This document shows positions 3,355 through 22,749 of a DNA stretch of 28,991 nucleotides, in pieces; position 1 is the first letter of the stretch; the number at the start of each line of letters is the position of its first letter. Location of the stretch: IMG/VR virus record IMGVR_UViG_3300047094_000669, positions 1 through 28,991 of that record; one strand, 5' to 3'. The notes under the pieces were generated by a model. It ran no database searches, had not been told where the DNA came from, and saw nothing but the letters and a program-made list of their open reading frames with translations. The position numbers and the translations under genes are program-made. This DNA comes from a virus.

Positions 3355-5856
3355 CTATGCTGTCAAGTCGCCGTAGACAACCCATGTATTTTCTGCTCTC
3401 TTGAAAAGAGTTGCAGATGACCACTGAGTTCTTAACTTTAGTCCTGGTGTTGCATTTACTGTAACTCCTGCTGTTCCAGCTATTGTTACTTGTCCTGTAG
3501 ATGTTTGAAGAATATCAAGAGATGTTCCCACTGGGAAGGCAACTGTTGAGTTTAGTGGAATAGTAATTGTTGTTGCTGATGCCTTTGCAACTTCAATTAA
3601 AGAATCTCTTTCAGAAAGTGCTGAAAGTGTATAGGAATCTGTCTTTGCAATAATTGGAGTTCTTGATGGAACGCCTTCTTTTGTTTGAGTTCCATCAGTA
3701 AATATAAAACCACCAGCGGTTGAGCTAATAACTGCAGTTCCATTTACCTTTAAGTCTTTTCCTGAAGCAAGGTTAATATGCTCTGAAGAAGTCCAAGAGT
3801 CTGTTGCATCTACCCAGTTAAAGGTTTTATCTGTTGCGCCCTTTAATGTGATACCGCCACCATCAGCAGTTGTATCTGTAGGGGTTGTTGCATCTCCAAG
3901 AACAATGTTCTTATCTTCAATAACAAGGTTAGTTGAGTTAAGGTTTGTTGTTGTTCCGTTTACTGTTAAGTTTCCAGAAACAGTTAAGTCTGCTGCAGAT
4001 AATGTTCCAGTAAATGTAGGTCCTGCAAGATTAGCCTTAAGATCAAGTGCTGTTTGTGTAGCAGTAGAAACTGGCTTGTTAGCATCTGTTGTATTATCAA
4101 CATTTGCAAGACCAACATCTGTTTTTGTAATTCCAGTAGGTGTATTAATTACTGGTGAAGTTAAAGTTTTATTTGTAAGTGTTTCAGTTTTAGATGCAGT
4201 TGACTTATCATCTAATTGTGTTTGGATTGCTGAAGTAACTCCATCAAGATATCCAATCTCAACATCCGAAACATTAGCAACAGTTGCCTGCTTTCCATTT
4301 AGTTGAGTTTGAATGGATGAGGTAACACCATCTACATAGCCAAGCTCTGTTGATGACACTGTTCCAACTGATGTATCTGATGGAAGAACTACTGTCCCAG
4401 TAAATGTAGGTGATGCAATTGGTGCATAAGTTGTTGCAGCATTTGACGAAGCAAGTTTCGCATCAAGTGCTGTTTGAGTAGCAGTTGATACTGGCTTGTT
4501 TGCATCTGAAGTATTATCAACATTTGCAAGACCAACATCTGTTTTTGTAATTCCAGTTGGAGTATTAATTACTGGAGAGGTTAAAGTTTTGTTAGTTAGA
4601 GTTTCAGCTTTAGAATCAGTTGACTTAGCATCTAGCTGTGTTTGAATAGAAGAGGTAACACCATCAAGATATCCAATTTCAGTATCTGTAACATTTGCTA
4701 CACGAGTCTGTGTAATTGATGTATCAATTGAAATAACTCCTGGAGTTGCCTCTTGTAGACCATTTCCAGTAACAATTGTTTTAGCAGCATTAAACTCTGT
4801 GTAGGTAATATCACTTGTTCCAATTACTATTGGGTTTGCTGTTGAGCTATTAACATATCCAAAAGATGCATTTACTGTTCCGTTTTGAACAAATGTAAAG
4901 TCTCCAGACTTCATTTCTCCAGTTGGGTTATTATCTGAATCTGTTGCACGAGTTAATACCCATGGAATAGATCCTGATCCAACTGTTGTCAATGTATAAA
5001 TACCATTTTGTTTTGCGTCAGTCTGATTCTTAACAAGAACTCTTTGACCAATAGCAACTGATTCTCCATCAAGTGTTCCAAATGCACGGTTTGTATCTGC
5101 TGTAAGAGTTGCACCTACTCCAGATGTTCCGTTTGCATAAATTGTTGCTAAGTTTGCAGTTGATGCTGCGTGTACTGCCTCATGGAAGTTAATTCCAGCA
5201 GTTACGTTGTCAACATAGAGTTTAGTTGCTGCATCTGAATCTGCAGTTGGTGCACCAAGAGCTGTCAGTCTATTACTACCCATTGAAAAGCTGCTGCTCA
5301 TAGTTCCGCCAGCAGTTAGTGACAACTTTCCATCTAACTGTCCTTGAACTCCTGAAGTTACACCATTAAGGTAGGCAATCTCTGTATCTGAAACTTCTGC
5401 AATAACTTTTTGAACTACTGTAGGATCTATTGTTAGTTTATTATCTACAATTCTTAGTCCATCGCCTGACGTAATGTCTACATCTAGTGTAATTGTGTTT
5501 CCATTATCATCATATGTTTTTGTTATACCGCTTCCACCAACAAGTGCAGTATTGATTGCATCTTGTGAAAGCTCATCCATATTTGGAATCTGGTTTGCTG
5601 GAACTTTACCAGAGCCGTCCAGTGTAGCAACACCGTTGGCCGCAGCCCTTTGTGTTAATGGAATGTAGTCATCAATGCTTCCACCAAGAGCAATTGCGTC
5701 TAAGAAGTAGTTAAGGTCGTCCCAGTGATTGTCACCGTCACCTATTTTAAATTTATTTGTATCGCTTTCATATCCAATTTCACCAGCATTTAAAACTGGA
5801 TTGGCAGTGGTCCACTGTGCTGCAGTGCCTCTACGCTGTTGCATTCTTGTTGCCAT
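3355..5856 (-). CDS. Large modular tail fibre protein, 833 aa
   Basis: The N-terminus (RMQQRRGTAAQWTTANPVLNAGEIGYE) is the phage-fibre head found in Mtd-like and other receptor-binding proteins, probably the virion attachment part. Repeated modules follow: D-TEIGYLDGVTSSIQTQLD segments near 155, 387 and 530, and two near-identical LTNKTLTSP/VGLANVDN modules at about 386-466 and 523-606. An LVIEDKNIVLGD/TDSWTSSEH module lies at about 633-700. The C-terminus (LKLRTQWSSATLFKRAENTWVVYGDL) is a typical fibre end. It probably forms a trimeric shaft used in host adsorption. AAAGGAG precedes the ATG. The repeats favour recombination. Confidence 0.85.
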   Translation of the reverse strand: MATRMQQRRGTAAQWTTANPVLNAGEIGYESDTNKFKIGDGDNHWDDLNYFLDAIALGGSIDDYIPLTQRAAANGVATLDGSGKVPANQIPNMDELSQDAINTALVGGSGITKTYDDNGNTITLDVDITSGDGLRIVDNKLTIDPTVVQKVIAEVSDTEIAYLNGVTSGVQGQLDGKLSLTAGGTMSSSFSMGSNRLTALGAPTADSDAATKLYVDNVTAGINFHEAVHAASTANLATIYANGTSGVGATLTADTNRAFGTLDGESVAIGQRVLVKNQTDAKQNGIYTLTTVGSGSIPWVLTRATDSDNNPTGEMKSGDFTFVQNGTVNASFGYVNSSTANPIVIGTSDITYTEFNAAKTIVTGNGLQEATPGVISIDTSITQTRVANVTDTEIGYLDGVTSSIQTQLDAKSTDSKAETLTNKTLTSPVINTPTGITKTDVGLANVDNTSDANKPVSTATQTALDAKLASSNAATTYAPIASPTFTGTVVLPSDTSVGTVSSTELGYVDGVTSSIQTQLNGKQATVANVSDVEIGYLDGVTSAIQTQLDDKSTASKTETLTNKTLTSPVINTPTGITKTDVGLANVDNTTDANKPVSTATQTALDLKANLAGPTFTGTLSAADLTVSGNLTVNGTTTNLNSTNLVIEDKNIVLGDATTPTDTTADGGGITLKGATDKTFNWVDATDSWTSSEHINLASGKDLKVNGTAVISSTAGGFIFTDGTQTKEGVPSRTPIIAKTDSYTLSALSERDSLIEVAKASATTITIPLNSTVAFPVGTSLDILQTSTGQVTIAGTAGVTVNATPGLKLRTQWSSATLFKRAENTWVVYGDLTA

Positions 5857-5897: not shown

Positions 5898-6356
5898 TTA
5901 GTTAAAGTTATCTATTGCTTCCCCGCCTATCCAGGTTTCTTCCCAAGATACTGTATTATATAATCCAGCACTTACAAGAACACCTGGCTCATTGTATGCC
6001 CCACCACTGACAAAAGTACTTACTATTAATCCGCTGCCGTCAATTGAAGTATCATGAATATGGTCTTGAAGAACTTCTGCATCTTCAAGAGTTGCTATGG
6101 CAACCCATTGAGATCCATAATAAACATGAACTCGCTCTGTTAATGTGTCAAACCACATATTTCCATTTGATGGAGATTCTGGGGCTGTTGCACCAACAGT
6201 TATTCCACTTGAAGCGGTTGCAGTATCTACATAAAGTTTTGTTGCTGCATGTGTATTTTGAGTTGGGGTGCCAACTGTGACAGTTCCTCCAAAAGTACCG
6301 CCTTGGGCTACATCTAACCCATGCTTTACCTTAAAGTCTCTATTGGTTGTTGTCAC
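5898..6356 (-). CDS. Short tail fibre-like protein, 152 aa
   Basis: The GTG start has GGGAG six nt upstream. The N-terminus RDFKVKHGLDVAQGGTFGGTVTVG and the segment THAATKLYVDTA are fibre-head sequences shared with the neighbouring fibres. The middle (GNMWFDTLTERVHVYYGSQW) resembles a small receptor-binding or chaperone-linked segment. It lies between two large fibre genes and is probably an accessory fibre or an attachment partner. Confidence 0.7.
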   Translation of the reverse strand: MTTTNRDFKVKHGLDVAQGGTFGGTVTVGTPTQNTHAATKLYVDTATASSGITVGATAPESPSNGNMWFDTLTERVHVYYGSQWVAIATLEDAEVLQDHIHDTSIDGSGLIVSTFVSGGAYNEPGVLVSAGLYNTVSWEETWIGGEAIDNFN

Positions 6357-10035: not shown

Positions 10036-10779
10036 TCAAGAAACTGATATATACATACCCTTTAAAATGATGGTGCTTTCATTATCTGCTCTTGCTTGAA
10101 TAATACCACCTTCAGATTTGATTTTTGATAAGTCGACATATAGGGTTTGGCTAACAGACATTTCATATGGGTATTTATATTTTAACATTCCGATATATCC
10201 TGTTGGAGATTCTACTTTTGGAATATATGTTCTAATCCAGGCTTCTGTGCTATTTGTGTCGGTAGTCAATGCTATATCATATCTAATGTCTACTCTAGTC
10301 CCTACTTTTAATTGCTTAAAATTAATCCTTTGTGTAACTGAACTCCAGAGTGATACTGAGCCTGCTGGAAGGAATTGTAAAATATTATTGTTTTCATCAT
10401 CATCCATTAAGATATTTACCCAGCCATCATCTCCTCTATCAGGTCCTAGAAATAATGGTTTTCTATTTTTATTTTCATAGTATGCCCAACCTGGGTATTG
10501 ACCCGAAGGACTTTCATATCCTTGACCACCACCACGTCCAGGTTCACCTTTAGGCCCTTGCGGTCCTTGAGGACCCTCTTTACCATCTTTTCCTGGAATT
10601 CCCCTATCACCTTTTGGGCCTTCAGGTCCTTGTGGTCCTATCGGTCCTTGATCCCCTTTTTCACCCTGAATTCCTGGTACAGCGATATACTCAGTATTAC
10701 TGGCTTCTATGCTTTTGGTTGACTTTATTGCTTCCGAATATCTTGCTTTTGGGGCATCCATATTTTTTGATATGGCCAT
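10036..10779 (-). CDS. Collagen-like tail fibre protein, 247 aa
   Basis: A 35-residue N-terminal segment is followed by about 17 uninterrupted Gly-X-Y triplets (residues 36-86, many GPQ, GPK and GEP). A beta-rich C-terminal domain of about 160 residues follows ([28 protein letters not shown] onward). Phage collagen-like segments form rigid trimeric shafts, so this is a likely fibre or head/tail decoration. It is the third gene of a minus-strand unit beginning with a BppU-like protein and ends at the shared terminator. Whether its prolines are substrates of the local prolyl-hydroxylase-like enzymes is only a hypothesis. Confidence 0.8.
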
Positions 10780-12951: not shown

Positions 12952-13125
12952 TTATTTAACCTCCTCTAGGGTAGTTTCTAACACTACCCAACCCTCTAAA
13001 ACCTTTTGGCTTAGGTAATCCCAAGCCTTAGTCTCGCTTTCGCATAGGGCTTGGATAGTACCTGTCCAACCCATATTAGAACCAACCCAAGTTAGTAGGT
13101 ATTGTGTTTTTGTTAATGTAGTCAT
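12952..13125 (-). CDS. Small protein of unknown function, 57 aa
   Basis: MTTLTKTQYLLTWVGSNMGWTGTIQALCESETKAWDYL...; the first gene of the three-gene minus-strand operon, with an AAAGGTGG site upstream. The TWVGS motif followed by a helix resembles the other WVGG mini-proteins in this window. Unknown function. Confidence 0.68.
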   Translation of the reverse strand: MTTLTKTQYLLTWVGSNMGWTGTIQALCESETKAWDYLSQKVLEGWVVLETTLEEVK

Positions 13126-13172: not shown

Positions 13173-13200
13173 ATTCTAGCACCTACCACTGACATTTTGA
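13173..13200 (-). promoter_or_regulatory. Early-type promoter, TGTCAG class, minus strand
   Basis: Read on the minus strand: TGTCAG (13189-13194) in the spacer, TGC, then TAGAAT (13173-13178). The -35 is poor, but TGTCAG and TGC keep the same spacing as in the other cassettes. Drives the 13125-12629 operon. Confidence 0.65.
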
Positions 13201-13232
13201 CCCCTTTTCTCGGGCGTGTCGTAATTTATTTT

Positions 13233-13248
13233 TGTGGCGTTGATCACA
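13233..13248. promoter_or_regulatory. CRP/GlxR-like operator 1
   Basis: TGTGGCGTTGATCACA. Its centre is 74.5 bp upstream of the predicted start for the minus-strand promoter at 13173. Confidence 0.65.
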
Positions 13249-13285
13249 TATACCCTGGGAGTTTCCTGAGAGCGGCCCGGCCCCT

Positions 13286-13305
13286 TGTGGATAACCTGTG
13301 TATAA
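13286..13305. promoter_or_regulatory. DnaA-box pair
   Basis: TGTGGATAA (13286-13294) and TGTGTATAA (13297-13305) are 11 bp apart, next to the GGCCCGGCC motif. An inverted near-copy is at 15664-15679. Confidence 0.55.
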
Positions 13306-13331
13306 GTACCTATTAAAGGCTTGATATATCC

Positions 13332-13493
13332 TTAATCACAAGCGCACCACAATGAACCACTTTCAATAGTGCTCCAATGTCCGTCTATATCACAATAAAA
13401 GGCATTTTCTATCATCTCATCTGTGATAGTTTCAATAGTTAGGAATGGGAATTCCGCTATTAGTTGATCAATTACATTTTTTACTTTTGACAT
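13332..13493 (-). CDS. Small acidic protein, 53 aa
   Basis: MSKVKNVIDQLIAEFPFLTIETITDEMIENAFYCDIDGHW...; a GAAAGGA site precedes the ATG. It is the only gene of its transcript, under the leftward promoter at 13543-13571. Helical N-terminus and a C-terminal CAC-D ending. Not recognised. Confidence 0.65.
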   Translation of the reverse strand: MSKVKNVIDQLIAEFPFLTIETITDEMIENAFYCDIDGHWSTIESGSLWCACD

Positions 13494-13542
13494 TTTATTG
13501 TCCTTTCGTTTAGTAGTTATACTTTAACTATCTAATACTGGA

Positions 13543-13571
13543 AGTATAGCAAACCATACTGACAAATACAA
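13543..13571 (-). promoter_or_regulatory. Early-type promoter, TGTCAG class, minus strand
   Basis: Minus strand: TTGTAT (13566-13571), 17-bp spacer with TGTCAG and TGC, TATACT (13543-13548). A full match to the plus-strand cassettes in inverted orientation. Confidence 0.8.
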
Positions 13572-13592
13572 GTCTAAACACGGCGTGTCGTG

Positions 13593-13608
13593 TGTGATCT
13601 CTACCACA
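13593..13608. promoter_or_regulatory. CRP/GlxR-like operator 2
   Basis: TGTGATCTCTACCACA, centred 64.5 bp upstream of the predicted start of the minus-strand promoter at 13543. Confidence 0.7.
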
Positions 13609-13622
13609 CAGCCCGGCAAAAA

Positions 13623-13638
13623 TGTGGTACACATCACA
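13623..13638. promoter_or_regulatory. CRP/GlxR-like operator 3
   Basis: TGTGGTACACATCACA, 30 bp from operator 2 centre to centre, so on a similar face of the helix. It lies in the gap between the two divergent promoters. Confidence 0.65.
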
Positions 13639-13694
13639 TTTGACCCCCCTTATAAAACCCCTGCTCAGAGCCTTAATTCCCCTATCTCTGGAGA

Positions 13695-13710
13695 TGTGGT
13701 GTACATCACA
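13695..13710. promoter_or_regulatory. CRP/GlxR-like operator 4
   Basis: TGTGGTGTACATCACA is nearly a perfect palindrome. Its centre is 76.5 bp upstream of the predicted start of the plus-strand promoter. Confidence 0.7.
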
Positions 13711-13743
13711 AAACGAAATGTCCGATTTATCATAGTTACTTGT

Positions 13744-13772
13744 CAGTAAATGTCAGACCCCCCTGTTATACT
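13744..13772 (+). promoter_or_regulatory. Early-type promoter, TGTCAG class
   Basis: TGTCAG (13751-13756) and TATACT (13767-13772) at the standard distance. The -35 at 17-bp spacing (CAGTAA) is poor; a TTGTCA lies just upstream at 13740. Starts the main rightward array. Confidence 0.65.
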
Positions 13773-13824
13773 TCTAGGTATAAAGAAAGTTAATCAAGGT
13801 GATTAACAAAGAAAGGAAAACAAA

Positions 13825-13983
13825 ATGTTTTCACTAAAATATAAAATGACTAGAATTGGTCGCTACGGAAATGTAGAAACCGTTACTACTAAACTCCCTA
13901 TGAAAAGTGAGTTAGCCATAAATAATTGGTTAGACTCAGATGTTGCTAAGGGTTGGACTATCCTAGAAGTAGAGGTGAACTAA
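13825..13983 (+). CDS. Small basic protein, 52 aa
   Basis: MFSLKYKMTRIGRYGNVETVTTKLPMKSELAINNWL...; a GAAAGGA site precedes the ATG. First gene of a rightward operon whose members overlap end to start. Looks like a small beta-alpha fold. Not recognised. Confidence 0.65.
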   Translation: MFSLKYKMTRIGRYGNVETVTTKLPMKSELAINNWLDSDVAKGWTILEVEVN

Positions 13984-14141
13984 TGACTAATATCCTTACT
14001 CATAACCTAGGTTATATTCAGCAATATAATCGTCATCTAATGCTAAATAACCGTAACGGTTTAACTAATTGCCAATGCAAATTGTATTGCGCCCCTGATG
14101 CTATGTATTCAGACAAGATCAAGAAAGTAGGTACTAAGTAA
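13983..14141 (+). CDS. Small protein with CQCKLYC motif, 52 aa
   Basis: The ATG overlaps the previous stop (TAATG). MTNILTHNLGYIQQYNRHLML... then CQCKLYC, which could bind a metal. Unknown function. Confidence 0.62.
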   Translation: MTNILTHNLGYIQQYNRHLMLNNRNGLTNCQCKLYCAPDAMYSDKIKKVGTK

Positions 14142-14317
14142 TGGTACAAGTAAAATTGACTTCGTTTAATGGTAATGTAAGGCGTGTGGAATTTGCTACC
14201 GCTTCTCTTGCTGATAACTATATCAAGGCGCTACCTAATGCGCTACCCAAATCAATTACCTTGCAAGTAGAGTGCGACGCTCTAACACTATCAGGACATA
14301 TCAGAGGAGTTAAATAA
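14141..14317 (+). CDS. Small protein of unknown function, 58 aa
   Basis: MVQVKLTSFNGNVRRVEFATASLADNYIKALPNALPK...; TAATG overlap with the gene before. It begins with a predicted beta hairpin followed by a helix. Unknown function. Confidence 0.62.
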   Translation: MVQVKLTSFNGNVRRVEFATASLADNYIKALPNALPKSITLQVECDALTLSGHIRGVK

Positions 14318-14490
14318 TGAATATTGAAACAAAAGAAGTTGTATCCCTATGCAATAAAATTCGTGGAAACGATAAAGATACTGGCGTTCACTATTTAGCA
14401 GGTTACCTATGGGCAAGCCTTGCGGATAGTGAAAGAGAAAGAATCTTTGAAATGTTTAAAAGTGATTTAGAATTGGAGAAAAATAATTGA
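14317..14490 (+). CDS. Small helical protein, 57 aa
   Basis: MNIETKEVVSLCNKIRGNDKDTGVHYLAGYLWASLADSERERIFEMF...; TAATG overlap with the upstream gene. Mostly helical and acidic toward the end. Unknown function. Confidence 0.62.
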   Translation: MNIETKEVVSLCNKIRGNDKDTGVHYLAGYLWASLADSERERIFEMFKSDLELEKNN

Positions 14491-14576
14491 GTAACTTTTT
14501 CGCAAGTGGTAATGCACTTTTATTTTTTTCACTAATTAGTTTTTTTGTTTCTATTTATTTATTTGCAAAAGAATAA
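14487..14576 (+). CDS. Putative 29-residue membrane peptide
   Basis: A TTG start overlaps the previous TGA. The product MSNFFASGNALLFFSLISFF... is almost wholly one hydrophobic helix ending in KE. GGAG lies upstream within the preceding gene. A similar-sized membrane peptide follows the GP88 gene. Tentative because of size and start codon. Confidence 0.4.
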   Translation: MSNFFASGNALLFFSLISFFVSIYLFAKE

Positions 14577-14609
14577 CGGAGGCGGCCCGGCGCAGTCGGG
14601 CGTGTCGCA

Positions 14610-14625
14610 TGTGATAAGAAACACA
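14610..14625. promoter_or_regulatory. CRP/GlxR-like operator 5
   Basis: TGTGATAAGAAACACA, centred 74.5 bp upstream of the predicted start of the promoter at 14657-14685. Confidence 0.65.
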
Positions 14626-14656
14626 TAAAAACTTTCCCGAATTACGGCGTGTCGAT

Positions 14657-14685
14657 TTGCATTTCTGGAAGTTGTCTGCTAGTAT
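14657..14685 (+). promoter_or_regulatory. Early-type extended -10 promoter (upstream of tandem pair)
   Basis: TTGCAT (14657-14662), 17-bp spacer ending in TGC, TAGTAT (14680-14685). The TGTCAG spacer motif is not kept here. Confidence 0.6.
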
Positions 14686-14719
14686 TGCTACTATAACAAT
14701 TAAATAACGCCATAAGTAA

Positions 14720-14735
14720 TGTGATTAACCTCACA
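14720..14735. promoter_or_regulatory. CRP/GlxR-like operator 6
   Basis: TGTGATTAACCTCACA, centred 74.5 bp upstream of the predicted start of the promoter at 14767-14795. Because the promoters are in tandem it also lies just downstream of the first start. Confidence 0.7.
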
Positions 14736-14766
14736 CAAAATATGTCTGATATGTCCGAATTTGAAT

Positions 14767-14795
14767 TTGTATTTGTCAGCCATAACTGCTAAAAT
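14767..14795 (+). promoter_or_regulatory. Early-type promoter, TGTCAG class
   Basis: TTGTAT (14767-14772), spacer with TGTCAG and TGC, TAAAAT (14790-14795); spacer exactly 17 bp. Confidence 0.8.
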
Positions 14796-14830
14796 AGTTA
14801 CATAAAGAAAAAGAAAAGGAAGTGCTAACA

Positions 14831-15055
14831 ATGGCAACTAGAAAATATAATATCGTAGAATTACTAGACGGAAAAGCCTATCGCTCACACTCTCGTAAAA
14901 TTGAGGGAGTTATCGTATGGGCAGAACCTCGCCCCTCAATTTGGTACGGTGAGAACTATGAGGCTTATCTTATCAAGGTGCGCCCTCAATATAAAATAGG
15001 CTCACTACTAAAGAAAGATTTTTATGCTACCGTAGCAGTAAAGGTTGGTGAGTAA
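14831..15055 (+). CDS. Small protein of unknown function, 74 aa
   Basis: The ATG at 14831 follows an AAGGAAG site; a GTG three codons earlier overlaps that site. MATRKYNIVELLDGKAYRSHSRKIEGVIVWAEPRPSIWYGENYEAYLIKVRP... is basic and beta-rich, possibly an SH3-like barrel. First gene of its operon. Confidence 0.65.
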   Translation: MATRKYNIVELLDGKAYRSHSRKIEGVIVWAEPRPSIWYGENYEAYLIKVRPQYKIGSLLKKDFYATVAVKVGE

Positions 15056-15057
15056 TA

Positions 15058-15201
15058 ATGGGAAATTTATTTGATGAACTATCTAATGTATTTATTTGCG
15101 ATAACTGCGATACTCTTGCTACGGTGTCAGTACAAGGCGATACAATAAATATAACACAATGCGCTTGCGTACAACTATTCACAACACAAGAAAACAACTA
15201 A
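15058..15201 (+). CDS. Cys-rich mini-protein, 47 aa
   Basis: MGNLFDELSNVFICDNCDTLATVSVQG...TQCACVQLF; CDNC (14-17) and CAC (35-37) make a likely zinc site. Starts two bases after the previous stop. Unknown function. Confidence 0.6.
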   Translation: MGNLFDELSNVFICDNCDTLATVSVQGDTINITQCACVQLFTTQENN

Positions 15202-15218
15202 AAGAAAAGGAACAGAAA

Positions 15219-15425
15219 ATGAAAAAAATATATCACTCCCTGCAATTCGTAACAGAAGTAGACGAAACTCACCCAGTAGTACAACGCCTGCTATCACTTT
15301 CAGAACTTGACCAAGTGCAACTGCTTGAGTCAATGCTTAAAGAAATGCTTGCACCACGCATTCAACCTGCACTAGATGAAATAAATGAGCGGGGCACTTA
15401 TGCAATTCTTAAGGTGGCAGAGTAA
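15219..15425 (+). CDS. Small helical protein, 68 aa
   Basis: ATG at 15219 is chosen because AAAGGAA lies just upstream; a longer frame would overlap the gene before. MKKIYHSLQFVTEVDETHPVVQRLLSLSELDQVQLLESMLKEML... is mostly helical and acidic. Unknown function. Confidence 0.62.
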   Translation: MKKIYHSLQFVTEVDETHPVVQRLLSLSELDQVQLLESMLKEMLAPRIQPALDEINERGTYAILKVAE

Positions 15426-15604
15426 TGATGACACGCAAGGACTATGTAGCCGTTGCAGAAATTCTTTCATCGTATAAAGATTTAATCGGTGATGAATTTA
15501 CTTTTGAGGATTTGGTAGAGGATTTTTCTGGAATGTTTGCAGAGGATAATCCAAATTTCAAACACGAAATATTTAGAGAAGCGTGTTTGAAAAACAATTT
15601 CTAA
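15425..15604 (+). CDS. Small phage protein of MTRKDY type, 59 aa
   Basis: Two ATGs in a row overlap the previous stop (TAATGATG). MMTRKDYVAVAEILSSYKDLIG...FEDLVEDFSGMFAEDNPNF resembles short proteins starting M-T-R-K-D-Y/F that occur widely in phage genomes, without known function. Last gene of its operon; a 24-nt hairpin element follows 13 nt after the stop. Confidence 0.65.
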   Translation: MMTRKDYVAVAEILSSYKDLIGDEFTFEDLVEDFSGMFAEDNPNFKHEIFREACLKNNF

Positions 15605-15617
15605 ATAAAATAAAAAT

Positions 15618-15641
15618 CCTGAGCAAGATCTAAAACTGCTC
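15618..15641 (+). ncRNA. 24-nt operon-end hairpin element, copy 1
   Basis: Begins CCTGAGCAAG and ends AAAACTGCTC; GAGCA pairs with TGCTC across an 11-nt loop. AAATTTT follows. Between a stop codon and the next regulatory cassette. Confidence 0.65.
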
Positions 15642-15663
15642 AAATTTTGGCCCGGCGTGTCGT

Positions 15664-15679
15664 CCACAGGTTATCCACA
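15664..15679. promoter_or_regulatory. DnaA-box pair
   Basis: TCCACAGG then TTATCCACA (15671-15679). It is an inverted near-copy of the pair at 13286. Confidence 0.5.
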
Positions 15680-15689
15680 ACCCTTTACG

Positions 15690-15705
15690 TGTGATATTAA
15701 ACACA
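15690..15705. promoter_or_regulatory. CRP/GlxR-like operator 7
   Basis: TGTGATATTAAACACA, centred 64.5 bp upstream of the predicted start of the promoter at 15727-15755. Confidence 0.7.
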
Positions 15706-15726
15706 CCCCGAAACACCTTTACGGAC

Positions 15727-15755
15727 TTGTATTTGTCAGTCCCAGATGATAGGAT
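15727..15755 (+). promoter_or_regulatory. Early-type promoter, TGTCAG class
   Basis: TTGTAT (15727-15732), 17-bp spacer with TGTCAG and TGA, TAGGAT (15750-15755). Confidence 0.8.
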
Positions 15756-15790
15756 TACAGAGTAATCAAATAAAGAAAGAAGGAATATCT

Positions 15791-15901
15791 ATGAACCTAG
15801 ATGAATTCAAGGCTCACGTCAAGACCCAACGAGAAGCAAGCAAGGTAGAAGCCTTGTCAGCCCTCTCTGCTACTATTATTGTAAAGAAAGAAGGAAACTA
15901 A
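15791..15901 (+). CDS. 36-residue helical mini-protein
   Basis: MNLDEFKAHVKTQREASKVEALSALSATIIV...; an AGAAGGA site precedes the ATG. One amphipathic helix. First gene of its operon, TAATG overlap with the next. Unknown function. Confidence 0.55.
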   Translation: MNLDEFKAHVKTQREASKVEALSALSATIIVKKEGN

Positions 15902-16110
15902 TGGAATATAATTACTCACTAACTACTTCGTATGACGGAGTACTTGTTTATACTATGCGTGTTAGCGATATGCTAGAAGCCGTAGACGCTTGGAATAAGT
16001 GCGTGGACTTTGGTGGCGCATATGAATACGCAACCTATAACTTGTCAGACCCAACAGGTAAGATGTACACTAAGACTTTTTATCGTAACGGAGAGGTAAA
16101 GGTAAAGTAA
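15901..16110 (+). CDS. Small acidic/aromatic protein, 69 aa
   Basis: MEYNYSLTTSYDGVLVYTMRVSDMLEAVDAWNKCVDFGGAYEYATYNL...; AAGGA upstream and TAATG coupling. A beta-alpha-beta-beta pattern (strand, helix around 22-35, two strands) is likely. Unknown function. Confidence 0.65.
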   Translation: MEYNYSLTTSYDGVLVYTMRVSDMLEAVDAWNKCVDFGGAYEYATYNLSDPTGKMYTKTFYRNGEVKVK

Positions 16111-16247
16111 TGAAAGACCCTATCACTTGGAAGTCTAATCACGACTCAACCCTTATAGATAAGATGAGTGCAGATGAATTAGAATTATTTGAAGCAGACA
16201 TAAACGATGCTATTGACGGCGTAATCGAAGATTGGGAAGGTAGATAA
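16110..16247 (+). CDS. 45-residue acidic protein
   Basis: MKDPITWKSNHDSTLIDKMSADELELFEADINDAIDGVIEDW...; TAATG overlap. Strongly acidic helix over the second half. Unknown function. Confidence 0.6.
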   Translation: MKDPITWKSNHDSTLIDKMSADELELFEADINDAIDGVIEDWEGR

Positions 16248-16248
16248 T

Positions 16249-16557
16249 ATGGGAAGTGTAACAGCAATAGGATTAGCAGACTCAGTACTAGACTTAGAAA
16301 CTCAGATACTTTATCACCTTAAAGGTAATCACTATCCTCCAGTACCCGCAGAAATGGTGCAACCTTGCATAGAGGCTATTGACGCATACTATGACGAGGA
16401 CTATGGGCGCTTGATAGATATGCCTATGGTTGGTAACTTTCAGATACTATACCGTGGAGAAAAGCAAGCCCCTGCACACGCTATTGTAGATCAACACCAC
16501 CTGGAATGGTTTATCCAGCCAGCAGAGGACATTCCTGATGAGTGGATCGAGGACTAA
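16249..16557 (+). CDS. Actinophage-type conserved small protein, 102 aa
   Basis: MGSVTAIGLADSVLDLETQILYHLKGNHYPPVP...CIEAIDAYYDEDY...APAHAIVDQHHLEWFI. The GNHYPPVP and AIVDQHHL segments recur, as I recall, in small proteins of many actinobacteriophages; no function is known to me. It supports an actinobacterial host. Starts one base after the previous stop. Confidence 0.65.
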   Translation: MGSVTAIGLADSVLDLETQILYHLKGNHYPPVPAEMVQPCIEAIDAYYDEDYGRLIDMPMVGNFQILYRGEKQAPAHAIVDQHHLEWFIQPAEDIPDEWIED

Positions 16558-16685
16558 TGTATACACTTTGGGTTGGCGGGAGTAAGTTAAATTCTTATTC
16601 AGATAAACACAATGCAGAATACTTTGCTCAGGAAATGATTGAGATGGGCTACGATGATGTAGTTATGGAGTTTATCAGTGAGTGA
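16557..16685 (+). CDS. WVGG mini-protein, 42 aa (tandem copy 1)
   Basis: MYTLWVGGSKLNSYSDKHNAEYFAQEMIEMGYDDVVMEFISE. TAATG overlap with the gene before. Aligns along its full length with the next gene. Fold would be strand-helix-strand. Unknown function. Confidence 0.62.
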   Translation: MYTLWVGGSKLNSYSDKHNAEYFAQEMIEMGYDDVVMEFISE

Positions 16686-16818
16686 TTGGACAGTTTGGGT
16701 AGGTGGCGGGGAGTATACCTCCCACTACCTATCAATTAATCAAGCAAGCGATCTTGTTGAACACCTAAAGTGGGATTTAGGATATGACGATGTATTTATG
16801 GAGTGTGTGAATGAGTGA
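16678..16818 (+). CDS. WVGG mini-protein, 46 aa (tandem copy 2)
   Basis: GTG start inside the end of copy 1. WTVWVGGGEYTSHYLS... and GYDDVFMECVNE match LWVGGSKLNSYS and GYDDVVMEFISE of copy 1. A diverged tandem duplicate. Also overlaps the next gene by 8 nt. Confidence 0.6.
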   Translation: MSDWTVWVGGGEYTSHYLSINQASDLVEHLKWDLGYDDVFMECVNE

Positions 16819-17050
16819 TACAATGGAAACTATGCAATTTGTATACGCTGACTTACTGACTCCCGCTCAACTTATGGTTGGCGATCTAATCAATGTTGAT
16901 GATGACATTGTTGAAGTTTTGTCCGTTATAGATGATGCAACAGGTGATAACTATATAGTTACACATCGCAATGATTTTGGTGAAACATACGAAACCGCTT
17001 GCACCTTTGAGGATATGTTTAAACTCTATGTCTTTATAGACGAGGAATAG
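16811..17050 (+). CDS. Small acidic protein, 79 aa
   Basis: MSDTMETMQFVYADLLTPAQLMVGDLINVDDDIVEVLSVIDDATGDNYIVTHRNDFGE... looks like a small beta barrel: LMVGDLI-V then I-EVLSV and NYIVTHR strands. Last gene of its operon. Unknown function. Confidence 0.65.
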   Translation: MSDTMETMQFVYADLLTPAQLMVGDLINVDDDIVEVLSVIDDATGDNYIVTHRNDFGETYETACTFEDMFKLYVFIDEE

Positions 17051-17065
17051 GCAGGCCGGGCCGCC

Positions 17066-17081
17066 TGTGGCCTAGATCACA
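17066..17081. promoter_or_regulatory. CRP/GlxR-like operator 8
   Basis: TGTGGCCTAGATCACA, centred 74.5 bp upstream of the predicted start of the promoter at 17113-17141. It directly follows a GGCCGGGCC motif. Confidence 0.7.
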
Positions 17082-17112
17082 GTTACGTACCGTGTTTAAA
17101 ACCCCCTAGAAC

Positions 17113-17141
17113 TTGTATTTGTCAGTTCAGCCTGCTAGGAT
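17113..17141 (+). promoter_or_regulatory. Early-type promoter, TGTCAG class
   Basis: TTGTAT (17113-17118), 17-bp spacer with TGTCAG and TGC, TAGGAT (17136-17141). Confidence 0.8.
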
Positions 17142-17171
17142 TAGAATAATCTAAACGAAAGGTCGTGCCAA

Positions 17172-17399
17172 GTGCGATACGAAAATGATGAGTTCTATGA
17201 TGAACTATATGCCACAACTTCACCAGATGAAACCTATGGCAACTGCAATGTTTGCCGTAATGAAACAGAACTAAATGCTTTTGATCTATGCTGGTCTTGT
17301 GAGTTAGAGGCTGCTATGTATCCGTCTTATTCAACTTTTGATTTAGTTTCACACCATATGGAAACTCGTATGGCTGATGCAGAAATGGGTGACCTATAA
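17172..17399 (+). CDS. Small zinc-ribbon-like protein, 75 aa
   Basis: GTG start after GAAAGG. Acidic N-terminus, then CNVC (25-28) and CWSC (40-43), a classic four-cysteine zinc ribbon, and an acidic helix at the end. First gene of its operon. Unknown partner. Confidence 0.65.
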   Translation: MRYENDEFYDELYATTSPDETYGNCNVCRNETELNAFDLCWSCELEAAMYPSYSTFDLVSHHMETRMADAEMGDL

Positions 17400-17503
17400 T
17401 GGATTCATATGATGACTACTATGAAAATACTGAACGTGTATCTATTGGTTGCTATTGTAAAATAAATTTTGTTTGCTCTGAATGCAAACCTAATTACTAT
17501 TGA
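17399..17503 (+). CDS. 34-residue Cys-rich mini-protein
   Basis: TAATG overlap. MDSYDDYYENTERVSIGCYCKINFVCSECKP...; CYC and CSEC form a compact possible zinc knuckle. Unknown function. Confidence 0.55.
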   Translation: MDSYDDYYENTERVSIGCYCKINFVCSECKPNYY

Positions 17504-17544
17504 GGGGCCGGGGCAAAATGTCCGTTTTGTCCAATTAAGATGAG

Positions 17545-17573
17545 TTGTATTTTTCCCCTAAGTCTGCTAAAAT
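17545..17573 (+). promoter_or_regulatory. Early-type promoter driving a leaderless gene
   Basis: TTGTAT (17545-17550), 17-bp spacer ending in TGC, TAAAAT (17568-17573), then six nt to the ATG at 17580. No TGTG-N8-CACA site here; instead TGTCCGTTTTGTCC (a 9-bp repeat of TGTCC) lies upstream. Confidence 0.75.
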
Positions 17574-17579
17574 TATTAT

Positions 17580-17720
17580 ATGAAAAAAACAGCAGAGGAA
17601 TTACGCAGGCTTATGGAATTGCGCCGAAGCAATGCTGCCTCTGCCGTACCCAATAAAAAGAAATACAACCGCAAGAAATGTCAGTCCCTAATGCTAGAAT
17701 TAAAGAAAGAAAGCGAGTAA
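17580..17720 (+). CDS. 46-residue basic protein overlapping GP88 start
   Basis: MKKTAEELRRLMELRRSNAASAVPNKKKYNRKKCQSLMLELKKESE; strongly basic and helical, perhaps nucleic-acid binding. Leaderless start. Its last 43 bases overlap the next gene in another frame, so the two may be coupled. Confidence 0.55.
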   Translation: MKKTAEELRRLMELRRSNAASAVPNKKKYNRKKCQSLMLELKKESE

Positions 17721-18448
17721 CCACCATTACTAAATTACTCAGAAGCAAAGATCGGAAAGTAGCCAATGCCGTTACCCCCAATGGAAAACAAGCAAGTATC
17801 GCCAACACTTTTGGATTGCCTGCTGGAAAGGCTTACTCGTGCCCTGGTGCAACCAGTGTGTGTGAGTCGGTTTGCTACGCAGGAAAATTGGAAAAGGTAT
17901 TCCCAACAGTAAAGAAAAACTTATTGCATAACTGGGAATTGCTACGCAATGCAGACGGCCTAACTATGGTTATGCTATTAGAAGAAATGATTAGTGATTT
18001 TGTTGCTGATTGTGAAAAGCGCAATGCACCTATGCTATTCCGTATTCACTGGGATGGAGACTTTTTCAATGACACTTATACCAATGCGTGGAAAGTTGTA
18101 ATCAATAACAATACTAACATTCAGTTTTGGGTATATACCAGAGTTAAGTCTGCGGCCATAACTCTAAAAGACATTCCTAATCTATCTTTATATTATTCTA
18201 CAGATAGCGAGAATAAGGAGATAGGTATTGGTCTCAAGAATGATCACAGTATTAGTCTTGCATACCTTGCTAAGAATTTTGAAATAGGCCAGGCAGATAT
18301 GAAAGCCCTTACCAATAGGCCTGGCGCTAAGTGCCCTGAGAATAAAAAGGCTATTCCCCTTATCTCTCAGAAAGGCTCAGCCTGCGCCTCTTGCAAGTTG
18401 TGTATTTATGAGAAAACTGATATAGTGTTTAGTGCAACCAAAAAGTAA
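17678..18448 (+). CDS. Phage GP88-domain protein, 256 aa
   Basis: TFGLPAGKAYSCPGATSVCESVCYAGK (44-70) is the signature of the GP88 family of actinophages and related elements. Cysteines C55, C62 and C66, and later C219, C236, C239 and C242 (CPENKK, CASCKLC), suggest a metal or iron-sulfur site. FRIHWDGDFF (121-130) is a second conserved core with acidic residues. The function is unknown; a nuclease-like or redox role would be speculation. The ATG lies inside the end of the preceding 46-codon gene and no better start exists. One of the few larger genes in the array. Confidence 0.78.
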   Translation: MSVPNARIKERKRVTTITKLLRSKDRKVANAVTPNGKQASIANTFGLPAGKAYSCPGATSVCESVCYAGKLEKVFPTVKKNLLHNWELLRNADGLTMVMLLEEMISDFVADCEKRNAPMLFRIHWDGDFFNDTYTNAWKVVINNNTNIQFWVYTRVKSAAITLKDIPNLSLYYSTDSENKEIGIGLKNDHSISLAYLAKNFEIGQADMKALTNRPGAKCPENKKAIPLISQKGSACASCKLCIYEKTDIVFSATKK

Positions 18449-18524
18449 GGGGAAGCCTATTCTAACAGTAACTATATTAACTTTCATCTTGCTAGTGTTC
18501 GTTCTTGCAGGGCTAGGGCATTAG
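18432..18524 (+). CDS. Putative 30-residue membrane peptide
   Basis: GTG start overlapping the end of the GP88 gene by 17 nt. MQPKSKGKPILTVTILTFIL... has a basic N-terminus and one hydrophobic helix. No ribosome-binding site is clear. Comparable with the 29-residue peptide at 14487. Confidence 0.38.
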   Translation: MQPKSKGKPILTVTILTFILLVFVLAGLGH

Positions 18525-18538
18525 TGATACAGATCACA
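18523..18538. promoter_or_regulatory. CRP/GlxR-like operator 9
   Basis: AGTGATACAGATCACA, with perfect GTGAT/ATCAC arms. Its centre is 83.5 bp upstream of the predicted start of the next promoter. Confidence 0.6.
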
Positions 18539-18578
18539 CAGAAAGGGTCTCAATATATGAGATTATCAAGGCTAGGAA

Positions 18579-18607
18579 TTGTATTTCTGAGATTTTTCGG
18601 TTATACT
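18579..18607 (+). promoter_or_regulatory. Early-type promoter
   Basis: TTGTAT (18579-18584), 17-bp spacer, TATACT (18602-18607). TGTCAG is absent. Confidence 0.7.
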
Positions 18608-18649
18608 AGATATATAAGCAAAACCAACCAACACAGAAAAGGAAACAAA

Positions 18650-18811
18650 ATGACAGTAGCAACAGCAACATACAAGGTCGGCGACACCTACACTTCACAG
18701 AAGTCAAAGGTTACAGGAACTATCTTGGAAATCGTACCAACAGACAAGAACACAGTTCGTGTGAAGTTAGATGTAAATGGCAACACACGCTGGACTACTT
18801 GGAAGGCGTAA
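18650..18811 (+). CDS. Small SH3/KOW-like protein, 53 aa
   Basis: ATG follows AAAAGGAAAC. MTVATATYKVGDTYTSQKSKVTGTILEIVPTDKNTVRVKLDVNGNTRWTTWKA reads as a five-strand small barrel (VGDTYTSQK, VTGTILEI, TVRVKLDV, TRWTTW), similar to short actinophage proteins. Possible nucleic-acid or protein binding; single-gene operon. Confidence 0.65.
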   Translation: MTVATATYKVGDTYTSQKSKVTGTILEIVPTDKNTVRVKLDVNGNTRWTTWKA

Positions 18812-18820
18812 GCCTTTCAT

Positions 18821-18841
18821 AGTCGCCAATGTACAGCGACT
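18821..18841 (+). other. Hairpin after the SH3-like gene
   Basis: AGTCGC-CAATGTACA-GCGACT, six bp, ten nt after the stop. A longer pairing, ATAGT (18819-18823) with ACTAT (18859-18863), would end exactly at the next 24-nt element. Confidence 0.4.
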
Positions 18842-18863
18842 CTAAATAAGTGGCAGGAACTAT

Positions 18864-18887
18864 CCTGAGCAAGATACTAAACTGCTC
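18864..18887 (+). ncRNA. 24-nt operon-end hairpin element, copy 2
   Basis: Begins CCTGAGCAAG and ends AAACTGCTC; the same GAGCA/TGCTC stem and 11-nt loop. Immediately followed by the next promoter region. Confidence 0.65.
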
Positions 18888-18916
18888 ACCACAATGTCAG
18901 ACCTACCCACTATAAT
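18888..18916 (+). promoter_or_regulatory. Promoter with TGTCAG but no -35
   Basis: TGTCAG (18895-18900) and TATAAT (18911-18916) at the standard distance; the -35 position holds ACCACA. No CRP-like site upstream. Confidence 0.6.
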
Positions 18917-18948
18917 AGAAATATAACCCACCAAAGAAAAGGAAACCT

Positions 18949-19374
18949 ATGTCAAGAGGCAAAGCAATATCAGTAAAAATCCCTACTCAGCGAGTAATCG
19001 CAGGGTTAGAGTCATCACTCGCTAAACTAGAAGCAAACTACGCAACACAAGAAGCCAACGAAGCAAAGTATGAAAAGGCTATGGAAAAATGGCGCAAGGA
19101 ACTTCAGGCGTTTGCTATTGCAAACATCAAGAAGGCTGAAAACTTCCGTACAAACTATCGCTCATACAATAACAGACTAAACATTGACTATGATATTATT
19201 GTAGCCAATGATAAGGAACTGCCAGTAGAACCTGAGCGTGAACACGAACTTCTGCGCCAACACGAATATCGTGAGCAGAAAGAGGAAATCACAAACGCAA
19301 TCCGTATTCTAAAAATGACAGATGAGGAAGTTGTAAATACTTCTACATACAACGCGGTTGCTCGTTATCTATAA
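18949..19374 (+). CDS. Coiled-coil protein, actinophage-type, 141 aa
   Basis: AAAAGGAAACC precedes the ATG. MSRGKAISVKIPTQRVIAGLESSLAKLEANYATQEANEAKYEKAMEKWRKELQ... is a basic N-terminus followed by a long coiled-coil-prone helix (about 20-62). A second helical region follows (about 90-125, EREHELLRQHEYREQKEEITNAI). MSRGKAI-type openings occur in actinophage hypothetical proteins. Unknown function. Confidence 0.68.
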   Translation: MSRGKAISVKIPTQRVIAGLESSLAKLEANYATQEANEAKYEKAMEKWRKELQAFAIANIKKAENFRTNYRSYNNRLNIDYDIIVANDKELPVEPEREHELLRQHEYREQKEEITNAIRILKMTDEEVVNTSTYNAVARYL

Positions 19375-19415
19375 ATAAAATTAGGGGGGCAACTTAAAGT
19401 CCTGAACCCTAACGA

Positions 19416-19439
19416 CCTGAGTAAGTCGCAAAACTGCTT
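19416..19439 (+). ncRNA. 24-nt hairpin element, copy 3
   Basis: Begins CCTGAGTAAG and ends AAAACTGCTT; the stem GAGTA/TGCTT is held by G-U pairs, so both sides changed compatibly. Confidence 0.6.
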
Positions 19440-19492
19440 ATACAATTTAATAATTGCAGGGGTTCCAGAATAGACTAGTCGCCTCTGCATCA

Positions 19493-19516
19493 CCTGAGTA
19501 AGTGTATAAACTGCTC
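19493..19516 (+). ncRNA. 24-nt hairpin element, copy 4
   Basis: Begins CCTGAGTAAG and ends TAAACTGCTC; the stem GAGTA/TGCTC contains one G-U pair. Confidence 0.62.
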
Positions 19517-19578
19517 ACTAAGTTTCACAAGAAGGATAAACGTGGATATTAGTTCCACACACGTCCTAGTGAAAAATT

Positions 19579-19602
19579 CCTGAGCAAGAATTAAAAAGGC
19601 TC
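19579..19602 (+). ncRNA. 24-nt hairpin element, copy 5
   Basis: Begins CCTGAGCAAG and ends AAAAAGGCTC; a 4-bp GAGC/GCTC stem remains. ATTTTT follows, so this copy looks most like a terminator. Confidence 0.6.
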
Positions 19603-19621
19603 ATTTTTGCGGCCGGGCCGC

Positions 19622-19637
19622 AGTGATCAACATCACA
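19622..19637. promoter_or_regulatory. CRP/GlxR-like operator 10
   Basis: AGTGATCAACATCACA, directly after the GCGGCCGGGCCGC dyad; 101.5 bp upstream of the predicted DUF932 transcript start. Confidence 0.55.
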
Positions 19638-19638
19638 G

Positions 19639-19654
19639 TGTGATTAAGACCACT
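19639..19654. promoter_or_regulatory. CRP/GlxR-like operator 11
   Basis: TGTGATTAAGACCACT, one mismatch in the right arm, centred 84.5 bp upstream of the predicted start; 17 bp from operator 10. Confidence 0.55.
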
Positions 19655-19695
19655 TTAAGAAATGTCCGATTTGCCCCATATCTAACTAGCCTAGT

Positions 19696-19724
19696 TTGCA
19701 TATGTCAGCCCATACTGCTACACT
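19696..19724 (+). promoter_or_regulatory. Early-type promoter of DUF932 gene, TGTCAG class
   Basis: TTGCAT (19696-19701), 17-bp spacer with TGTCAG and TGC, TACACT (19719-19724). Confidence 0.78.
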
Positions 19725-21046: not shown

Positions 21047-21472
21047 GTGAGAGAAAGATCAAAAGGATATATCGGTCAGATAGTTGACGGCAAGAAGTTA
21101 GCAGTAATCGCTAATGGAATCTATAATCTACAGTATAGTAGCGACTTTAGTGAATGTACAGTAGACGGTTTGTTATTTGTTACCCTTGAAGAAAAAAATG
21201 TATACGGCGACAATAAGTATGCATTGGTTTGCTCAGAGGGTGTTGGCTGGGAGCAGGATACATTTGGCTGTCTAGAAGTACCAACAAACATTGGGCCTAT
21301 GGGCCTATGGAATGGCAGAGTGTTTATATCAGTAGACACCGTTAAAGAATGTCTAACAGATCAAACAGCAGATATCGCAGACTACATCCGTGTCTTTGGT
21401 GACAGACTAGATAATAACTGTTCCCTATGGCAATCCAAAATGTCAGTGGCAGAGGATACAATAGTAATATGA
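21047..21472 (+). CDS. Protein of unknown function, 141 aa
   Basis: GTG at 21047 follows AAAGGA and lies downstream of the promoter; an upstream in-frame TTG is inside the promoter. MRERSKGYIGQIVDGKKLAVIANGIYNLQYSSDFSECTVDGLLFV... is beta-rich with five cysteines and no known motif. Heads a long coupled operon ending at the terminator at 24555. Confidence 0.65.
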   Translation: MRERSKGYIGQIVDGKKLAVIANGIYNLQYSSDFSECTVDGLLFVTLEEKNVYGDNKYALVCSEGVGWEQDTFGCLEVPTNIGPMGLWNGRVFISVDTVKECLTDQTADIADYIRVFGDRLDNNCSLWQSKMSVAEDTIVI

Positions 21473-22092: not shown

Positions 22093-22292
22093 TGCATATT
22101 GAATCCCGTGAAATTACATACCGCTCAGTTGTCGAGCAGATCTTCTTTGAAGATGAAACAGAATTAGTAGTCACAGTTGGTTGGCCTGAAGGTCAGGAAC
22201 ACGACTTGGATATTAGTTACGATTGGGTAACAGGAGAGCCTGAGTATCTACAAGAGTACTTGGTCAATGTCAGTGCTGGACGGTACAATTAA
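22092..22292 (+). CDS. Acidic beta-rich protein, 66 aa
   Basis: MHIESREITYRSVVEQIFFEDETELVVTVGWPEGQEHDLDISYDWVTGEPEYL...; TAATG overlap with the upstream gene. Likely a small beta sandwich. Unknown function. Confidence 0.62.
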   Translation: MHIESREITYRSVVEQIFFEDETELVVTVGWPEGQEHDLDISYDWVTGEPEYLQEYLVNVSAGRYN

Positions 22293-22295
22293 ATT

Positions 22296-22517
22296 ATGAC
22301 ACGATCATCACGCTTTATAGAATATATGAAGTTACATCTAATTAGTCTTAATCAAGATTATGAGAAATTCTATGAGGACTACTTAAATGATACTAACTAC
22401 TACCAAGAAGATATAGATAATATCAGGGGACAGATCAAGGCTACTAAGCACCTCTTGTCAGTGGCTCTCGATATAATGGAACAAAGCAACCAAGGAGAGT
22501 GGGCAATCAATGAGTGA
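22296..22517 (+). CDS. Helical protein, 73 aa
   Basis: MTRSSRFIEYMKLHLISLNQDYEKFYEDYLNDTNYYQEDIDNIRGQIKATKHLLSVAL...; nearly all helix, coiled-coil-prone. Three bases after the previous stop and overlapping the next gene by 8 nt. Unknown function. Confidence 0.62.
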   Translation: MTRSSRFIEYMKLHLISLNQDYEKFYEDYLNDTNYYQEDIDNIRGQIKATKHLLSVALDIMEQSNQGEWAINE

Positions 22518-22749
22518 GAAGTATCCCTTTATACCAGAACATTTAACTAAAGCATTAGAGGACACCTCTATCCCATTAATCGATATAATGCACGGAGAAC
22601 TTAAGAATCTTATTCTTGAATGGGAAAGCAAAGAGTTTGAGGATTGGCAATATGCCGAGGGATATATGGACTGCTTGACAGATCTATACGCTATGACCTA
22701 TAATTTATCTATAGACCGCAAGCGAATAGAGGAGACCCAAAATGCCTAA
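22510..22749 (+). CDS. Helical acidic protein, 79 aa
   Basis: AAGGAG precedes the ATG. MSEKYPFIPEHLTKALEDTSIPLIDIMHGELKNLILEWESKEFEDWQYAEGYMDCLTDLYAMTYN...; the W-x-YAEGYMDCL segment resembles small phage proteins of similar size. Unknown function. Confidence 0.62.
   Translation: MSEKYPFIPEHLTKALEDTSIPLIDIMHGELKNLILEWESKEFEDWQYAEGYMDCLTDLYAMTYNLSIDRKRIEETQNA

Follow-up and report, generated by a model that had tools for sequence, protein, structure and literature searches.

The question raised by this locus is which factor reads TGTCAG, a hexamer that recurs between the -35 and -10 elements of a family of phage promoters. The locus lies in the 28,991-base IMG/VR virus record IMGVR_UViG_3300047094_000669 (hereafter the window, meaning this whole stretch of DNA), which represents a tailed-phage family from metagenomes with genomes of about 105-119 kb and has actinophages as its best named relatives. 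A sequence-only reading of the window had listed eight promoters in which TGTCAG occupies spacer positions 2-7, and had suggested that a bound phage factor, an altered sigma factor or a repressor acts on it. Our analysis indicates that TGTCAG is very probably the -26 element of the actinobacterial PafBC-dependent promoter, and that the promoter array would drive a block of phage genes by means of the PafBC activator of the host.

An element at a fixed distance from the -10

Regardless of geometry, TGTCAG is mildly enriched in the window (22 versus 14.9). The window signal resides in a fixed geometry and not in TGTCAG alone: TAnnnT lies exactly 10 nt after 16 of the 22 copies, compared to a mean of 0.56 (maximum 3 in 200) under a first-order Markov model, and the other gaps between 4 and 17 nt yield 0 or 1 match, except gap 16, which has 4 matches and where a second TAnnnT begins six bases downstream. 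The analysis was extended to relatives of the window phage, sampled as 80 loci retrieved with the DUF932 protein of the window and 80 retrieved with its GP88 protein (~160 loci; 3.16 million distinct positions). Among the 57,344 combinations of 4096 hexamers and 14 gaps, TGTCAG-N10-TAnnnT ranks first, with 610 matches seen versus 28 expected (21.6-fold), and gaps 9 and 11 fall below expectation; the ordinary promoter TTGACA-N17-TAnnnT was seen 294 times versus 41 expected. Single mismatches in TGTCAG bring the enrichment to about 1-fold (0.5-2.8-fold overall, TGTCGG apart), the exceptions being TGTCGG itself (8.4-fold) and, more weakly, TGTCAC (2.8-fold) and TGTCAT (2.3-fold). In 15 near-complete genomes of 101-119 kb, 149 matches were counted versus 11 for the reversed pattern (about 10 promoters per phage genome), and nearly all of them lie within one 8-12 kb block of small genes, which lies at ~13-23 kb in the window. 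The genome-wide enrichment anticipated by the sequence-only reading is therefore present in these relatives. Among IMG/VR contigs bearing the motif, 30 of 120 matches have no similarity to the phage family, each with at most 2 copies.

The eight promoters first listed are all real, but they are an under-count: the window holds 16, the additional eight being mostly inside open reading frames (ORFs). On the minus strand, the listed promoters are TGTCAG-N10-TAGAAT at 13173..13194 (extended -10 TGC, no -35; before ORF 12952-13125(-)) and TGTCAG-N10-TATACT at 13543..13564 (TTGTAT -35, TGC; before ORF 13332-13493(-)). On the plus strand, the same element and gap are found at 13751..13772 (-10 TATACT preceded by TGT, -35 absent; before ORF 13825-13983; an additional TGTCAG at 13741 lacks a -10 at that gap), 14774..14795 (TAAAAT, TTGTAT -35, TGC; before ORF 14822-15055), 15734..15755 (TAGGAT, TTGTAT -35), 17120..17141 (TAGGAT, TTGTAT -35, TGC; before ORF 17172-17399), 18895..18916 (TATAAT, -35 absent; before ORF 18949-19374) and 19703..19724 (TACACT, TTGCAT -35, TGC; before the DUF932 gene). 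The sites not listed previously are located at 15125..15146 (TACAAT, within the upstream reading frame; ahead of the gene that begins at 15219), 15855..15876 (TACTAT; before ORF 15901-16110), 16043..16064 (TAAGAT; before the gene starting at 16110), 17679..17700 (TAGAAT), 21441..21462 (TACAAT, within overlapping reading frames), 22268..22289 (TACAAT; before ORF 22296-22517) and 22456..22477 (TATAAT; before ORF 22510-22749), all on the plus strand, and at 5991..6012 on the minus strand (TACAAT). This last match, in a tail-region gene outside the block and upstream of ORF 3355-5856(-), may be due to chance. The promoter at 17679..17700 precedes or overlaps the listed start of the GP88-family gene (17678..18448, plus strand; PF17338, phrog_1392); as the listed ATG sits within the promoter, the true GP88 start is probably further downstream, perhaps at an unusual start codon. 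The DUF932 gene (TIGR03299; 19723..20772, plus strand) closes the denser part of the block on its downstream side. Most relatives retain a TGTCRG-type site ahead of DUF932 (73 of 80) and ahead of GP88 (70 of 80), compared to 13-15% of random windows.

Where a -35 exists among the eight listed promoters, the spacer is 17 bp, as had been proposed (TTGTAT for the promoters at 14774, 15734, 17120 and 13564(-), TTGCAT for that at 19703), and the -35 has decayed in the three others, to CAGTAA (13751), ACCACA (18895) and GTCAAA (13194(-)). The statement that TGC mostly precedes the -10 is loosely true: TGn is found in seven of the eight promoters, TGC in only five. The logo of 173 promoters, obtained after thinning for similarity, reads A(A/T)(T/A)TGTCAG(T/A)(C/G)(C/G)...TGn TAtaaT. 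Little of the -35 is left in it: a TTG-type -35 survives in roughly one promoter in five (37 of 173 have TTG at the 17-bp position), and such promoters may be basally active as well. TG is present at -15/-14 in 55%. A ribosome-binding site and an ORF follow in 145 of the 173 cases (84%, versus 39% for random positions), with a median leader of 27 nt, and the promoters precede nearly every gene or gene pair of the small-gene block. TTGACW-17 promoters form a separate class, with TGTCAG in only 7 of 225. The rigid spacing, the single-base specificity and the loss of the -35 support the proposal that the -35 counts for less than the element in the spacer; the idea that a bound factor reads it holds as well, the same evidence fitting an activator bound to RNA polymerase.

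PafBC and other candidate readers

Mycobacterial RecA-independent DNA-damage promoters (RecA-NDp) have the consensus tTGTCRgtg-8 nt-TAnnnT (PMC5656591). This equals TGTCRG-N10-TAnnnT, phage sequence and spacing alike, and the TGTCGG tolerated in the relatives corresponds to the R of the published consensus. The promoter type is said to extend to other Actinobacteria (PMC8223512). Like these promoters, the phage sites combine a tTGTCR element in the -26 region, a fixed distance of exactly 10 nt to TAnnnT and a weak or absent -35, which would not be required. The helix-turn-helix of PafB touches the -26 motif and that of PafC touches SigA domain 4, an arrangement called "sigma adaptation"; PafBC is activated by single-stranded DNA bound to its WYL domains, and it binds the promoter only jointly with the polymerase (PMC11804915). 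Recognition by PafBC would explain the odd properties of the phage promoters, namely an element inside the spacer that outranks the -35 at a rigid distance from the -10, and the fact that the -35 is mostly lost is consistent with sigma adaptation. In M. smegmatis without mitomycin C, reporters with an intact P1 gave in a pafBC mutant about half the wild-type signal (PMC5656591), and some basal use would therefore be expected.

The reader of the element is most likely not made by the phage. No WYL domain, the domain of PafBC, was found in 16 phage records, and sigma region 4 (Sigma70_r4) is absent from the 15 near-complete genomes, in which other sigma domains were not searched one by one. With an element that is the host PafBC consensus, these absences argue against the phage factor or altered sigma factor put forward by the sequence-only reading. 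LexA boxes are also rare in the phages (9 in 2.7 Mb), with no sign of an array. By contrast, WYL proteins are present in all 14 genomes of the candidate host order, that of a metagenome-assembled genome (MAG) with a phage contig, and are in tandem in most of them. In the one adjacent pair that was checked, PafB matches the RNA polymerase-PafBC complexes 9fnd/7p5x (E 4e-40) and PafC matches 6sj9 (E 8e-27); the pair lies before tatC, as in mycobacteria. TGTCAG-N10-TAnnnT precedes recA in two candidate host genomes (L350 and L352), a dnaB-like gene in L348 and a carD-like gene in L351 (gene names from inspection of the translations), and lies beside SOS boxes in L343, L344 and L352. The host matches favour TGG after TGTCAG (33 of 135, ~2 expected), and the gap-9 control pattern TGTCAG-N6-TGn gave 2 matches in 61 host genomes. 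That the hosts are freshwater Actinobacteria of this order is suggested by the relatedness to actinophages, by WhiB and by a single MAG contig; the order would be, judging from the habitat, GC content and size of the genomes, 'Ca. Nanopelagicales'. The two cultured phages of 'Ca. Nanopelagicales' are a different, 39-kb family (PMC10202952).

Several points weigh against PafBC as the reader. The bases that follow TGTCRG partly differ, T/A then CC or GG in the phage versus the mycobacterial tg: at -22 to -20, where the RecA-NDp element ends in gtg, the phage logo shows T/A, C/G and C/G. The bare pattern shows only a mild excess over its reversed control in the host order (402 versus 276 in 61 genomes). 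The link to the host is indirect: the MAG contig (L177) may have strayed into its bin, given that binning is unreliable for these phages, whole contigs of the family being also placed in a cyanobacterial MAG (L172, CAINGU010000031.1, 109,918 bp, a near-complete genome in which the motif occurs 14 times) and in a Phycisphaerae MAG (L173, VGXN01000109.1). PafBC dependence is predicted for the phage promoters from consensus identity only. Finally, a WhiB-like protein is universal in the phages, which leaves room for a phage-encoded contribution.

This WhiB-like protein, encoded in 15 of 15 near-complete genomes, is the best candidate for a phage factor that would read TGTCAG by binding and redirecting host SigA region 4, through which WhiB-like proteins are known to act. 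The resulting architecture, a box near -30 with an extended -10, resembles the T4 middle promoters, in which a MotA box at -30 replaces the -35 and AsiA remodels sigma so that its domain 4 is redirected; however, the box sequence differs, and the T4 proteins are phage-made whereas the reader is here likely that of the host. The element is moreover identical to one already described in hosts, whose reader is a host protein and which candidate hosts use before recA, and Rhodococcus phage Trina has WhiB but no array (4 matches versus 2 in the control). Universal in the phages, yet neither required nor connected with the motif, WhiB is an unlikely reader. Its gene (L192:14909-15196 (-), with equivalents in G001-G015) is distant from the promoter block. 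Two further candidates were considered: MotA and AsiA are not among the 25 Pfam families listed of the 41 matched by 45 core proteins, no dedicated search having been made, and a MerR-like protein selected by eye (L188:13975-14517) matches no Pfam or NCBIfam family.

It is very improbable that the array is a decoy drawing PafBC and RNA polymerase from host repair genes, transcription being incidental. About ten copies per phage genome, multiplied by replication, would suit such a role, but PafBC without polymerase does not bind promoter DNA (PMC11804915), and the sites stand before ribosome-binding sites and ORFs, at the median distance given above, like working promoters. A repressor operator on the promoter core, comparable to the stoperators of cluster A mycobacteriophages, has an even slighter chance. 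The copies are multiple and asymmetric, and the stoperator core also contains TGTCA; however, stoperators are 13-bp asymmetric sites scattered genome-wide, whereas the sites described here are linked to promoters by a single spacing and restricted to one block. Their spacing to the -10 is exact to the nucleotide, nearly every copy belongs to a promoter with a gene behind it, and a strong promoter under repression would have no need for the observed decay of the -35, so that an activator fits much better than the repressor proposed earlier. That ClgR, and not PafBC, is the host reader is the least probable of these readings, as the ClgR binding to RecA-NDp that a 2011 study reported, according to its citation in PMC5656591, is countered by later genetics, in vivo binding and structures that assign the motif to PafBC.

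Upstream operators and a possible sensor array

Besides TGTCAG, CRP/GlxR-type sites are found at about -64 to -102 in seven of the eight promoters first listed. In the window, CRP/GlxR-like operators are TGTGGCGTTGATCACA at 13233..13248 (centre -74.5 of the 13194(-) promoter), TGTGATCTCTACCACA at 13593..13608 and TGTGGTACACATCACA at 13623..13638 (-64.5 and -94.5 of the 13564(-) promoter), TGTGGTGTACATCACA at 13695..13710 (-76.5 of 13751(+)), TGTGATTAACCTCACA, a perfect dyad, at 14720..14735 (-74.5 of 14774(+)), TGTGATATTAAACACA at 15690..15705 (-64.5 of 15734(+)), TGTGGCCTAGATCACA at 17066..17081 (-74.5 of 17120(+)) and AGTGATCAACATCACA at 19622..19637 (-101.5 of 19703(+)), this last promoter having also a weaker operator at 19639-19654 (-84.5). 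The dyad TGTGA-N6-TCACA is present upstream of the family promoters, where GTGA-N6-TCAC occurs 421 times and every other spacing from 0 to 12 at most 3 times. With at most one mismatch, 177 of 333 thinned promoters (53%) have such a site, versus 0 of 333 for the reversed control, and the centres peak at -64.5, -74.5 and -84.5, one helical turn apart. Class I activation by CRP works from such face-of-helix positions. HTH_Crp_2 was detected in 5 of 5 candidate host genomes and in none of 16 phages, a result that is weak alone since the search control was positive in all 14 reference genomes, archaea included. CRP/GlxR-type operators thus appear to be a second host input.

Other repeats accumulate in the same regions. 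DnaA boxes (TTATCCACA/TTATACACA) lie in the promoter intergenic regions at 13286-13294(-), 13297-13305(-) and 15671-15679(+), and upstream of the family promoters TTATCCACA is found 199 times versus 22 expected, mostly at -90 to -140. A TGTCCG(A)ATTT-like repeat occurs on the plus strand at 13719, 14752, 17519 and 19663; TGTCCG is present 213 times upstream of the family promoters versus 24 expected, with a peak at -50 to -70, and CGGACA is likewise common in Jay2Jay intergenic regions. GCGTGTCG is found upstream of the family promoters 156 times versus 14.5 expected, the counts being the same for the GGCGTGTCG repeat, which is intergenic in the window (13213, 13582, 14599, 14646 and 15654, plus strand). 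The latter often adjoins GGCCCGG, which resembles the GCCGCCCCGG found after LukeCage terminators.

In the mechanism that we propose, infection would expose single-stranded DNA through end resection and replication, and this DNA, as the trigger, would switch on the host PafBC. PafBC would dock between the promoter and SigA domain 4, with PafB reading TGTCRG at -28 to -23 and PafC holding that domain, so that the housekeeping polymerase would start at the extended -10, with the -35 dispensable, and be steered to the phage block; a CRP-type regulator, and possibly DnaA, would tune the block. The chances seem evenly balanced that the block is a sensor array, in which two or three host signals (PafBC, a phased CRP/GlxR-type regulator and possibly DnaA boxes) converge on each promoter: phage expression would then be gated by host DNA integrity and by the metabolic or replication state, and infection itself, via single-stranded DNA, would trip the switch.

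Known relatives and biological relevance

The phage array differs from RecA-NDp/PafBC promoters in that it sits in a lytic-looking block of small unknown genes and not before DNA-repair genes, in that the bases after TGTCAG are often ACC, TCC or CCC, and in that CRP-type operators are often found upstream. In the Streptomyces Stanwilliamsviridae (LukeCage, Jay2Jay), the terminal-repeat block shows GP88 ... DUF932 synteny with the window and has a promoter before most small genes, but these promoters are of the TTGnnn-17-TGn-TAGACT type. In the complete genomes of LukeCage, Jay2Jay, Comrade and Trina, TGTCRG-N10-TAnnnT occurs only at control level, and the array is therefore a property of the freshwater lineage, in which TGTCRG seems to have taken the place of the -35. 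Promoters controlled by CtrA are known in pili/flagellotropic phages of Alphaproteobacteria (PMC9437464). There too, a dense, local array of host-regulator sites in phage promoters allows the phage to read the host state; however, that regulator is the cell-cycle regulator CtrA, whereas here it would be a DNA-damage activator working via sigma adaptation.

Outside the promoter block, a tryptophan-halogenase-like protein (phrog_2928) and 2OG-Fe(II) oxygenase-type proteins are encoded near the tail genes (window 1-1290 (-), 1272-2509 (-) and 27534-28058 (+)), and the tail region encodes an fn3-domain protein with FFPPFFPP repeats at its end as well as a collagen-repeat protein (2532-3323 (-) and 10036-10779 (-)). 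Conserved genes of the phages encode an Hsp20-type chaperone and, by eye, a proteasome-beta-like protein (L193:2422-2838 (-) and L193:5275-5793 (-)).

PafBC promoters have so far been described for bacterial DNA-repair genes, and no report of phages using them was found in the literature searched, which did not cover subscription literature. If the reading proposed here is true, a phage can place a gene block under the damage activator of its host and drop its own -35 elements, and a large and abundant family of freshwater phages has a conserved array of PafBC promoters. It predicts that (i) infection activates PafBC, (ii) pafBC mutants alter phage growth and (iii) agents that raise single-stranded DNA shift the timing of the block. 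The array would also be a sequence signature by which metagenomic phages could be assigned to Actinobacteria with PafBC, for which records of clustered regularly interspaced short palindromic repeats (CRISPR) are lacking. Should the block indeed act as a sensor array, it would be the first known case of a phage lineage that operates a block of genes by way of sigma adaptation in the host.

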